Origin: Planctomycetota bacterium
GTDB taxonomy: Bacteria > Planctomycetota > UBA8742 > UBA2392
DNA length: 32,766 nt
Direction: 5' to 3'
Assembly (NCBI GenBank): GCA_020425695.1
Contig: JAGQRE010000033.1
Coordinates: 1-32,766 of the forward strand
Shown: in pieces, positions 18,545 through 27,359 of the stretch
Layout of the letters: every line of letters starts with the position of its first letter
Numbering within the stretch: the first letter of the stretch is position 1
Position numbers and translations under genes: made by a program
The notes under the pieces: generated by a model
Databases searched by the model: none
What the model was told of the DNA's origin: nothing
What the model saw: only the letters and a program-made list of their open reading frames with translations

Positions 18545-19008
18545 GCGACAGTTCAACGCAAACACGCAGTTTCACGATCCTGCTGGTTGAGGACAGCCCG
18601 GTCCAGCAGGCGTTGACGCGTCGTGCACTTGAAGACTCTTCGCTTGACGCGGACCTGCATGTCGTCGAGGACGGCGTTTCGGCGCTGCAGTACCTGAACC
18701 GTGAAGGCGAGTTTGCTGACGAGGGAGCATCGCCGCGTCCTGACATCATCCTGCTTGACCTCAACATGCCTCGCATGGATGGGCACGAGTTTCTGGACAG
18801 GCTGAAGTCGAACGAAAAGCTGGCACAGATACCGGTAACCGTTCTGACCACCAGCACAGCAGACAGCGACGTAACCGCCAGTTACGCACGCGGTGCCAAC
18901 GCGTTCGTGACCAAGCCGGCCGAGTACGACAAGTTCGTCGATCTGCTGAACGCACTTGGCCAGTTCTGGGCGCACTTCGTCAAAACCCCACCAGCCACCA
19001 GCAACTAG
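18541..19008 (+). CDS. Rcp1-like single-domain response regulator
   Basis: A 155-residue CheY-like receiver with no output domain. Acidic pocket Glu17-Asp18 (LLVEDSP), phospho-acceptor Asp73 in LLDLNMPRMDG, Thr103/104 (VLTTST), Lys125 (FVTKPAE). The alpha1 region (SPVQQALTRRALED) and the 13-residue insert near 55-67 are typical of Rcp1/phytochrome-associated regulators. Its ATG overlaps the kinase stop by four bases, so the pair is co-translated and very likely a cognate phosphorelay. The stop codon overlaps the stop of the convergent NuoEF gene in a shared CTAG. Confidence 0.94.
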   Translation: MSDSSTQTRSFTILLVEDSPVQQALTRRALEDSSLDADLHVVEDGVSALQYLNREGEFADEGASPRPDIILLDLNMPRMDGHEFLDRLKSNEKLAQIPVTVLTTSTADSDVTASYARGANAFVTKPAEYDKFVDLLNALGQFWAHFVKTPPATSN

Positions 19009-20516
19009 CGCTTCTCAAACGCTTGCGGGAAATACTGCATGGCGTTTTCGAGTGGTTTGGCGGCTACCATGCCGAGCCCGCAGATGCTGCCTTCTTCCAT
19101 TTCCCAGCCTACATCATTGGCGTGCTTCAGCGCCGTCGGATCGCCTGTCTCGAGGTATTTGCTGACCTGGTTGTGCAGGTAGCGCGTGCCGATGCGGCAC
19201 GGTGCGCATTGCCCGCAGCTTTCGTCTTCAAAGAACTCGAGCTGCCACTGCGCGGCCTTGGCCATGTCCACCGTGTCGTTCAACACGACCACGCCGGCAC
19301 TGCCAAGCATGCTGCCTTCCTTCTGTAAACCCTTGAAGTCCAGCGGCACGTCGCGCTTGGCAATCGGCAAAAAGCCGCTGCTTGCGCCGCCCGGACTGAA
19401 GGCCATCGGCGTACCTTCATAGCCGCCGGCCGCCTCTACCAGTTCGTCAAGAGTCGCGCCAAGCGGCAACTCATACACGCCCGGCTTGTTGATGTGCCCG
19501 CTGATGCAGTAGAGCTTGCTGCCGGGCTCGGTCTTGCCCCAGTCTTTGAAGGCCTTGCCGCCGTTCAGCAGAATGTACGGCACGCAGGCGAAGGTCTCGA
19601 CATTGCTGACCAGCGTGGGCTTGCCGCGGAAGCCGAACTCGAACGGGAACGGCGGCTTCAGGCGGGGCATGCCGCGCTTGCCTTCCATGCTTTCCAGCAG
19701 CGCGGTTTCTTCGCCGCAGATGTATGCCCCGTGCCCGCGGTGGAAGTGCCAGTTCCAGTCCTTCACATGGTCGCCGGCGCGTTTCAACGCTTCCTGCACG
19801 GCGGCGGCCTCAGCGTTGAATTCGCCGCGTATGTAGAAGTAGATGTCCTTCGCGCCGACCACCAGCGCGGCGATCGCCATGCCCTCGATCATCTTGTCGC
19901 TGCGCCGCAGCATGGTCTCGCGGTCCTTGAACGTCGCCGGCTCAGCCTCATCGGCGTTGCAGACCACGTAACGGACGGAGTCTTTCTGCCCGGCCACACC
20001 GCGCCACTTGATGAATGCTGGGAAGCCGGCGCCGCCGCGACCCTGCAGGCCGGATTCTTCAAGCAACTTGATGATGCCGTCTTTCCCCAGTTCGCGCGCC
20101 TTGGCCAGCGCCGCAAAGCCGTAGTCCTGCTCGCCGGCGAGGTTCAGGGGCAGCTTGTCGTCGGGGGGCGTGATGCTGCGCTGCTGCCTGCTGGTGTCGA
20201 AGACGTTCATGCTTTCGTCCAATGCAGCGGGCGCGCGGTCGCACTGGCCGAGGCAGCTTACTTCCTCGACTTCCTTGCCCTTGGCGCGCAGGTCGGCCAC
20301 GAGCTGGTCGCTGCCCTGGATGCGGCACGACAGGCCGTTGCAGACGCGAATGCGCGGCCCGCCCTTGAGCAGCGTGTAGAATGTTCCAGCCCCCCAGATC
20401 TCGGCTTCGGGTACACCGGTCTGTTCGCTGACGCGCCTGACGTTCTCCTCGGTAACGCCGCCAAGTTCCTCAAGCAACGGCAAAACGTGTTCGCGGTCGG
20501 CAGATTTTTTGAGCAT
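19005..20516 (-). CDS. NuoE-NuoF fusion: NADH-binding flavoprotein/diaphorase subunit
   Basis: A 503-residue NADH:acceptor module as in soluble formate dehydrogenases and hydrogenases (FdsB/HoxF/HndC-like). The N-terminal thioredoxin-like NuoE domain (about 1-105) keeps four [2Fe-2S] cysteines: Cys59, Cys64, Cys88, Cys92. The NuoF part starts near residue 130 with the NADH/FMN loop GRGGAGFP (159-166) and CNADEAEPATFKDR (186-199). GAYICGEETALLESMEG and SPGGASSGFLP follow. The [4Fe-4S] cysteines are Cys434, Cys437, Cys440 and Cys479. A GAAGG site lies 9 bases before the ATG. No Complex I genes flank it. A formate dehydrogenase alpha subunit lies 4 kb away on the other strand, and a shared complex is plausible but inferred. 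Confidence 0.93.
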   Translation of the reverse strand: MLKKSADREHVLPLLEELGGVTEENVRRVSEQTGVPEAEIWGAGTFYTLLKGGPRIRVCNGLSCRIQGSDQLVADLRAKGKEVEEVSCLGQCDRAPAALDESMNVFDTSRQQRSITPPDDKLPLNLAGEQDYGFAALAKARELGKDGIIKLLEESGLQGRGGAGFPAFIKWRGVAGQKDSVRYVVCNADEAEPATFKDRETMLRRSDKMIEGMAIAALVVGAKDIYFYIRGEFNAEAAAVQEALKRAGDHVKDWNWHFHRGHGAYICGEETALLESMEGKRGMPRLKPPFPFEFGFRGKPTLVSNVETFACVPYILLNGGKAFKDWGKTEPGSKLYCISGHINKPGVYELPLGATLDELVEAAGGYEGTPMAFSPGGASSGFLPIAKRDVPLDFKGLQKEGSMLGSAGVVVLNDTVDMAKAAQWQLEFFEDESCGQCAPCRIGTRYLHNQVSKYLETGDPTALKHANDVGWEMEEGSICGLGMVAAKPLENAMQYFPQAFEKR

Positions 20517-24529: not shown

Positions 24530-24560
24530 TTGATGCACAACCAATGTGCTTTGCTATACT
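24530..24560 (+). promoter_or_regulatory. Extended -10 promoter of the formate dehydrogenase gene
   Basis: TATACT at 24555-24560 preceded by TGC gives an extended -10 element; TTGATG (24530-24535) may be the -35 at a long 19-base spacing. It lies 24 bases ahead of the ATG, giving a short leader with AAGGA. Confidence 0.6.
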
Positions 24561-24584
24561 TGCGGAGTCACATCAAGGAATGAA

Positions 24585-27359
24585 ATGAGCGAGACCTTCA
24601 CAATCAAGATTGACGGCAAGGACTGTACCGCGCTTCAGGGCGAGACAGTGCTACAGGTTGCCCGTCGTGAAGGCATTGAGATTCCTACCCTTTGCGACGA
24701 CAAGCGGCTTGACCCGGCCGGCGCGTGCCGTGCTTGCCTTGTTGAAATTGACGGGCAACGGCGCCTGCAGCCGTCATGCGCCTGGAAGGCCGCTGACGGC
24801 CAGGACGTCAAAACACACAAAGCCAGCGAGCGTGTGCAGCGCCATCAGGATGTGCTGGTCAGCCTGTACATGGCCGACCACAAGCTTGATTGCGAAGGGC
24901 TGCCGATCGAAACCGGCAACGGCAACGACTTGCGCGCCTGGGCCAAGGATTGCAGCACGCTGAAGCTTGATCCGGTGAACGCACCGCGCGTCGCGCGTCC
25001 CGGCGACAAGAACCCCTACATCGAATTCGACCCGGAACTCTGTGTGCTGTGCGCACGCTGCACTCGCTACTGCGACGAAGTCGAGGCCGTAAATGCTATC
25101 GCGCTTACAGGTCGAGGCAGCGAAACGACGATCGGTACCGCGGGCATGCGCGGGCTGCTTGACACAAGCTGTGAGCTGTGTGGCGGCTGCATCGACACCT
25201 GCCCGACGGGTGCACTCATTGAGAAGAAGGCGGCCAAGACGCTGCCCGAAGAAGTCGAGAAGGTCCGCACCACCTGCAACTACTGCGGCGTCGGCTGCCA
25301 GATGGACCTGAATATCAAGGATGACGAGATCGTCCGCGTTACCAGCCCGGACCCCGGCACGACGGTGAACGACGGCAACCTCTGCATCAAAGGGCGCTTC
25401 GCCTACGACTTCGTGCACCACAAAGACCGCTTCACCGAGCCCATGATCCGCGGTGAAGACGGCCAGTTGCACCCCACAACCTGGGAGAAAGCCATCGCCT
25501 TCGCCGCTGAAGGCATGAAGAAAGTGGCCCAGCGCCACGGCCCCGAAGCCTTGGGCTTCGTATCATCGAGCCGCTGCACCGGTGAGGAAAATTACCTGAT
25601 GCAGAAGGTCGCCCGCGCGGCCTTCAAGACGGGTAACATCCACCAGTGCAGCGCCACGTGACATGCCCCAACCGTGGCCGGTCTGGTCAAAATGTTCGGT
25701 GCAGGCGCCATGACGAACTCAATCCCGGAAATTCGGGATACCGAGGTCATGTTCGTCATTGGCAGTAACACCACCGAAGCGCACCCGATTATCGCGATGG
25801 AAATGAAGGTCGCGCGTCAGCGCGGCGCCAAGCTCATCGTCGCGGACCCACGTAAAATCTGGCTGGCGGAGCACGCGGACATTCACATGCAGCTCAAGCC
25901 GGGCACCGACGTGTTCCTGCTGAACGCGATGGCGAAGGTCATCGTCGATGAAGGGCTCGTCGACAAAGATTTCATCGAGAAACACACCGAGGGTTGGCCG
26001 GCTCTGCGCGATAACCTAGCCAAGTTCACGCTGGAAGAAGCCGAGAAAGTCACCAAGGTTCCCGCAGCGTTGATTCGCGAAGCGGCGATCATCTATGCGA
26101 GTCACAAGCGCGCCGGTATTTACTACACGCTCGGCATTACCGAACACACGCACGGTACCGACAACGTTTACTCGTTGGCGAATCTCGTGCTGATGACAGG
26201 CCATCTCGGCGTGCGCAGCGCAGGCATGAATCCGTTGCGCGGGCAGAACAACGTGCAGGGTGCAAACGATTCCGGCTGCAGCCCGGTGTTCTACCCGGGC
26301 TACCAGTACTGCAACGACGAAAGCGTGCGCAAGAAGTTCGGCGAGGCGTGGGGGATCGGCGAAGGCCCGGGCCCCGGCAAGAACCTCAACGAAATGATGA
26401 AGCTGGTTGAGCACGGTGAAATGCACGCTCTCTACATCATGGGCGAAGACATCGTGATCTCTGAGCCGAACTGCAGCGTGCTTGAGGAATCACTCAAGAA
26501 CATCGAGTTCCTGGTCTGTCAGGACATCTTCCCGAACATGACCACGCCGTTCGCCCACGTGATTTTGCCGGGCGCAAGCTTCGCCGAGAAAGACGGCGTG
26601 TTCACCAATAGCGACCGTCGCGTGCAGCGCGTACGCAAGGCCGTCAGCTCACCCGGCAACGCCCGACCCGACTGGGAGATCTTGGGCGACTTCGCCCGAG
26701 AATGCGGCTACGACATGCCGAAATATGAACACCCCGGCGAGATCTACGCCGAGATGGCGGCGCTTAGCCCCAAGTTTTCGGGCATCAGCTACGAGCGTCT
26801 TGAGAAAAACCCGCGCGGCCTGCAATGGCCCTGCACAACGCCGGATGACCCAGGCGCCGAGTACCTGCATCAGGGTGCACCCCTGCGCGGCAAGGGCGAA
26901 TTCTCGACGGTTGACTACCGCGAAAGCGCCGAATTGCCGGACGACGACTACCCGCTGATCCTCAGCACCGGGCGCGTCTTGTACCAGTACAACAGTGCAA
27001 CACAGACGCGCCGCGACGAGGGTACCAACGCCAAGGCCGGCGAGAACTTCATTGAAGTACACCCGGACGACGCCGAGAGAATCGGCATCGTCGATGGCGA
27101 GCAGGTTAAGATCGTGAGTCGGCGTGGCGGCATCAAGGCGAAGGTCTGGCTGTCCGGGCGCGTGCAACTGGGCTGTGTGTGGATGCCGATGCACTTTGCC
27201 GAAGAGGCTGCGAACCGGCTGACCAACGACGCCGGCGACATCGTGACCGGCACCGGCGAGTACAAGGTCTGCGCCGTGAACCTGATCCCGTTGAAAGATG
27301 CTCGGAAGTCGTCGGGTAGCGCGGCTTTGGCGGCGGCGCGATCACCGAAATCAGCCTAG
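24585..27359 (+). CDS. fdhA: Formate dehydrogenase alpha subunit, selenoprotein with in-frame TGA (Sec359)
   Basis: Oxidises formate to CO2 (or the reverse) at a bis-molybdopterin-guanine-dinucleotide Mo/W centre. The frame is continuous over 924 residues except for TGA at 25659-25661, which sits exactly at the catalytic Cys/Sec position: ...HQCSAT-U-HAPTVAGL, matching the U-H-G-P-S-V-A-G-L of E. coli FdhF. Order: N-terminal [2Fe-2S] domain (Cys37, 48, 51, 65); a remnant of the NuoG-type His-Cys cluster (His99, Cys103, partner cysteines absent); two [4Fe-4S] (Cys153/156/159/163 and 196/199/202/206); the molybdoenzyme [4Fe-4S] (Cys231, 234, 238, 267); Sec359-His360; molybdopterin domains; C-terminal binding domain ending near residue 905. 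The ATG at 24585 has AAGGA 5 bases upstream. The diaphorase-like partner is probably the NuoEF gene 4 kb upstream on the other strand. Gene finders will split it at the TGA. No sel genes are in the window. Confidence 0.93.
25659..25700 (+). promoter_or_regulatory. Candidate bacterial SECIS element
   Basis: Starting at the UGA, the RNA can form a 5-bp upper stem (25675-25679 with 25685-25689, one G-U) with apical loop GGUCU at bases 22-26 counted from the U of UGA. As I recall it, E. coli fdhF has GGUCU at the same distance and U17 is also shared. Caution: GGU-CUG also encodes the conserved Gly-Leu, so the match is partly forced by protein sequence. Confidence 0.65.

Follow-up and report, generated by a model that had tools for sequence, protein, structure and literature searches.

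A formate dehydrogenase gene with a predicted in-frame selenocysteine codon in an uncultured planctomycete

Does the TGA codon at position 25659 end a gene, or is it read as selenocysteine (Sec) inside a longer one? The window, i.e. the whole analysed stretch of 32,766 nucleotides, belongs to a Planctomycetota metagenome-assembled genome (MAG) of 4.14 Mb in 341 contigs with a completeness of 88.7%. An earlier note, made from the sequence alone, proposed a formate dehydrogenase (FDH) gene with a Sec codon in its active site. The gene product is almost certainly the catalytic alpha subunit of an NAD-type FDH, with UGA 25659 decoded as Sec and not as a stop. The features of the locus are as follows.

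24585..27359, plus strand: fdhA, predicted Sec-containing formate dehydrogenase alpha subunit (TIGR01591; Pfam domains; ATG preceded by AAGGA)
fdhA residues ~3-211: N-terminal 2Fe-2S / NuoG-like Fe-S part (Pfam Fer2_4, Fer4_Nqo3)
fdhA residues 226-279: Fe4S4 motif (Pfam Molybdop_Fe4S4)
fdhA residues 282-897: molybdopterin domains (Pfam Molybdopterin, Molydop_binding)
25659..25661, plus strand: UGA codon, predicted catalytic Sec, residue 359 of fdhA (column with TGA in 71 and TGC/TGT in 35 of 106 aligned homologues, known duplicates removed)
25674..25690, plus strand: SECIS upper stem and GGUCU apical loop, positions 16-32 from the U of UGA (loop conservation and covariation)
24555..24560, plus strand: candidate -10 element TATACT of a possible fdhA promoter (conservation among genus-mates)
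19005..20516, minus strand: NuoE-NuoF fusion, probable NAD-binding beta subunit of FDH (Pfam 2Fe-2S_thioredx, Complex1_51K, SLBB, NADH_4Fe-4S)

The fdhA reading frame

The gene forms one frame from the ATG at 24585 to the TAG at 27357-27359 and codes for 924 amino acids if the TGA is read as Sec. This TGA is the sole internal stop of the frame (context NIHQCSAT-U-HAPTVAGLV), and mechanical ORF calling breaks the gene into 24546-25661 (371 aa) and 25674-27359 (561 aa). The earlier note had placed the TGA at the catalytic Cys/Sec codon, followed by the motif H-x-P-x-V-A-G-L and by 565 codons with full molybdopterin domains. Alignment with Sec- and Cys-type FDHs indeed puts it on the catalytic column, the motif (HAPTVAGLV) and the coordinates are right, and both the codon count (25662-27356) and the Pfam domains were recovered. 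Against TIGR01591 (cut-off 666.25), the full product with Sec at the TGA reaches 785.8 bits and covers model positions 1-671 of 672. An in-frame UGA at a column that is Cys in other family members, the mark by which we recognise a selenoprotein, is thus present in fdhA.

In a fragmented MAG, a TGA of this kind could have arisen by a sequencing error, or by a nonsense mutation that turned a Cys-type fdhA into a pseudogene. We regard this as highly improbable, since the TGA column is shared with relatives from several phyla, including near ones at 95% and 89% amino acid identity, and the half downstream of the TGA is conserved (FDHc 82-96% in genus-mates with the canonical site). The SECIS is conserved as well, and all sel genes are present in the genome (see below). 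The view that a frameshift or stop would hardly fall on this codon by chance is likewise upheld, as relatives at 66-95% identity share the TGA column and both halves of the protein are conserved.

The GGUCU hairpin downstream of the UGA

Bacterial SECIS elements have an apical loop of 3-9 nt with a G in its first two positions, located 16-37 nt from the UGA, and an upper stem of 4 bp or more (PMC13188914). The window features a 5-nt GGUCU loop at 18 nt and a stem in which five of six pairs form, the outermost (G-A) being unpaired. That the loop sits at the same distance as in E. coli fdhF, as noted earlier, was borne out: GGTCT follows 18 nt after the TGA in both genes, the E. coli stretch compared matching the annotated fdhF of E. 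coli genomes letter for letter. The register of the window stem is presumably one position off the published E. coli hairpin.

The minimum free energy of the local fold (48 nt, -13.0 kcal/mol) lies below the bSECIS limit of ≤ -7.5 kcal/mol, though it is no better than that of shuffled sequences (z = +0.34). Folding energy was rejected as proof of a SECIS, as the window and most relatives fold no better than their shuffled versions. An Rfam search of the window at gathering thresholds returned a tRNA-Pro alone and no SECIS. The case for the element is carried by comparison and not by energy, and comparison with the Cys homologues backs the candidate proposed in the earlier note.

Among genes with Gly-Leu at the loop position, the loop reads GGTCT in 61 of 65 Sec genes vs 2 of 25 Cys genes (Fisher p = 3e-15). 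Both groups encode identical residues here, so the difference is one at the RNA level. The upper stem joins positions 16-21 to 27-32 (numbered from the U of UGA). In 29 Sec genes, 97.1% of its cells are paired, with 20 double changes; in these stem and loop counts the sequences are related and the events not independent. Such a level of pairing was reached by 0 of 500 shuffles, and it falls to 23-61% when the partner strand is slid by 1-3 nt. The corresponding value for 19 Cys genes is 69.3% vs a shuffled mean of 64.0%; the weak signal left here may come from remnants of the element or from coding.

These comparisons also bear on a reading with two proteins, in which translation would stop at the TGA to give a 358-residue Fe-S protein and restart at GTG 25674 to give a 561-residue molybdopterin protein. 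An in-frame GTG does exist at this position, but the active site would be halved, and the loop codons GGT-CTG are fixed in Sec genes but vary freely in Cys genes, a pattern not expected from a restart. We give this reading as little credence as a sequencing error or pseudogene.

Sec machinery of the genome and the NAD-binding partner

Decoding of UGA as Sec calls for SelA, SelB, SelC and SelD, as the earlier note pointed out, and a genome without selB or tRNA-Sec would have spoken against its claim. All four were found, including these two, and the claim stands. Contig C272 carries SelA (549 bits) and, less than 1 kb from selA, the tRNA-Sec (72.3 bits; anticodon TCA by ARAGORN), while SelB (341.6 bits) is encoded on C285 and SelD (397.7 bits) on C99; all hits are above cut-off. 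The presence of selA, selB, selC and selD, by which a Sec-decoding organism is recognised, thus applies to this genome. The sel genes are located on contigs other than that of fdhA, and genus-mates carry sel genes too. An FdhD was found on contig C270. Among the family relatives searched, SelA and SelD were above cut-off in 15 of 15 and SelB in all but one. SelD has its own in-frame TGA at the active site (HGAG-U-GCK) in 16 of 16 family genomes; in that of the window genome, a possible SECIS (GACCU-loop-AGGUC) follows about 26 nt past the TGA.

That UGA is reassigned in general (e.g. to Trp or Gly) is even less probable than the two readings above: the neighbouring genes are ordinary ORFs under table 11, the fdhA frame has one TGA, every non-TGA homologue compared has Cys on this column, and tRNA-Sec and SelB are present.

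The second-best RF01852 match in the genome is a tRNA-Leu by ARAGORN, and neither it nor the other weaker ones are counted here as further tRNA-Sec genes. A 2-selenouridine synthase (TIGR03167) was not found in the genome, and for this reason selenium use appears to be restricted to Sec, as far as an 89% complete genome can show. Four relatives (G007, G010, G013 and G015; loci L108, L109, L110 and L111) have only a Cys-type FDH (CHSPTAYGL) above cut-off and have kept SelA, SelB and SelD. In the segment G000:C285:16569-21469, a nitrate-reductase-like molybdoenzyme gene of the NapA/NasC type in Cys form lies within 1 kb after selB. It was considered as a second FDH gene; its product falls below the TIGR01591 cut-off, has Cys in the context RLCMASAA and is probably not an FDH. 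It resembles NapA/NasC nitrate reductases, yet is below those cut-offs too.

The best PDB match of the NuoE-NuoF fusion is the beta subunit of a tungsten FDH (7e5z_B, 326 bits). In the window, its gene is found 4 kb from fdhA on the opposite strand, whereas in most relatives it lies 5' of fdhA in the same orientation. A NuoF-like FMN/NAD subunit linked to fdhA, as expected for an NAD-dependent FDH complex, is thus present, and the fusion at 19005-20516 is likely the NAD-binding partner of the FDH.

The gene order in the genomes G002, G003 and G004 is SK-RR (+), LysM (-), DUF3108 (-), NuoEF (+) and fdhA (+); in G003 and G004, LysM and DUF3108 are separated by an EF-hand gene (-). Compared to these, the window is inverted in place from ~19005 to between 24444 and 24585 (~5.5 kb), with both flanks collinear. 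The inverted block contains the NuoEF, DUF3108-like, EF-hand and LysM genes, and fdhA is thereby parted from NuoEF. The left breakpoint coincides with a CTAG common to the ends of the RR and NuoEF genes in G004; no convincing inverted repeats were found at the two breakpoints as a cause of the inversion, which might also be an assembly error. Directly 5' of fdhA, the window and G001-G004 have TATACT or TATAGT. The element at 24555..24560 was missed by a sigma-70 consensus scan; fdhA may nonetheless have its own promoter, as a TATACT-like element is kept in genus-mates and stayed with fdhA in the inversion. Extra DNA is found between NuoEF and fdhA in G002 and G003 (~0.7 and ~1.2 kb; L207, L209); by eye, it resembles a REP-associated transposase-like ORF in G002 and a MazF/PemK-like ORF in G003.

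Taken together, the enzyme would be a cytoplasmic, NAD-dependent FDH that presumably requires Mo or W. SelA would convert Ser-tRNA-Sec (anticodon UCA) to Sec-tRNA-Sec with selenophosphate from SelD. SelB would bind the GGUCU hairpin, which starts 12 nt past the UGA in the coding region, and deliver Sec-tRNA-Sec to the ribosome for Sec insertion at UGA 25659. SelB-driven insertion at an in-gene SECIS is established in E. coli FDHs and inferred in many FdhA genes (PMC13188914, PMC1794560). The Sec side chain would be a ligand of Mo or W in the bis-MGD cofactor, and electrons would pass from the N-terminal Fe-S clusters to the beta subunit encoded at 19005-20516 (NuoE/F type, minus strand) and on to NAD+, if the complex forms and the reaction runs in this direction as predicted.

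Relatives of the enzyme and a variant Sec site

The closest solved relatives of the window FdhA are NAD-type FDHs. FdsABG (6tg9_A, 716 bits) and the Methylorubrum-type W-FDH (7e5z_A, 624 bits; also 7vw6) have the same alpha-subunit architecture, and the beta subunit of 7e5z is a NuoE-NuoF fusion as in the window. Where the window has Sec, we take these enzymes (7e5z, 7vw6 and 6tg9) to have Cys. The Sec-type, NAD(P)-linked FdhA of Moorella mulderi shares the N-terminal Fe-S extension and has Sec at the same column (47% identity over 903 aligned positions), but comes from another lineage and differs in about half of its residues. E. coli FdhF (1aa6_A, 522 bits) shares the Sec column, the motif U-H-x-P-x-V-A-G-L and the GGUCU loop; however, it lacks the N-terminal NuoG-like Fe-S part, so that the match spans only residues 225-909 of the window protein, and to our knowledge it does not work with an NAD subunit.

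Six family members (L021, L022, L033, L120, L121 and L124) read U-HFPTEQALV at the Sec site, vs UHAPTVAGLV in the window. Their variant sites are located as follows.

L021:7090, L022:7090 and L033:7090: variant Sec site
L121:1903 and L124:1903: variant Sec site
L120, minus strand: variant Sec site

In all six, the GGUCU stem is gone (0-1 of 6 pairs), and in each the bases at positions 22-36, 5 nt further downstream, could pair as GCUCU-N5-AGAGC around a GGUCA or CGUGA loop. This hairpin fits the bacterial SECIS rules quoted in PMC13188914. Five pairs at the same place are also found in four Cys rows, and the stem is invariant among the six, so that no covariation signal can be obtained. In the tree, the variants form one clade (100/100 support) with G008 (UHAPTEAGLA) as sister (94/92). 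A relocated SECIS in the six variants is plausible.

L120 belongs to G003, a member of the window's genus. Over the first ~300 alignment columns it is 92-100% identical to the genus-mate G002; beyond these, from before the Sec column, it is more similar to the variants from other genera. Its fdhA is probably a recombinant gene with a genus-like N-terminal third and a variant-like remainder that includes the Sec site. The fuller scenario, in which the SECIS moved 5 nt downstream as VAGL became EQAL and G003 acquired the variant by recombination within the gene, is put forward tentatively, as somewhat short of an even chance. If true, it would provide a natural example of how a recoding signal can shift its place inside a coding sequence, and the import into L120 would have brought the signal along with the active site. 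A further locus, L140 (G005:C70:1083-3097), has an fdhA match broken past the Sec codon, with model positions 307 and 324 in different open frames, from either an assembly error or decay.

Among bacterial selenoprotein families, FdhA has the widest distribution (PMC13188914). For Planctomycetes, a Sec-type fdhA was described in 2016 in planctomycete P1 of another genus, which has the full Sec machinery and an fdhA apart from its sel genes; going by the published description, it resembles the window's genome in these respects (PMC4807772). The window fdhA is therefore a typical representative of the commonest selenoprotein family in bacteria, of a known kind already reported in this group. Reading it as one gene would set right a likely split annotation and extend the list of Sec-decoding bacteria that have an NAD-type FDH by a genus of uncultured planctomycetes. 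Of broader interest are the related loci in which the SECIS and the protein residues it overlaps appear to have changed together.
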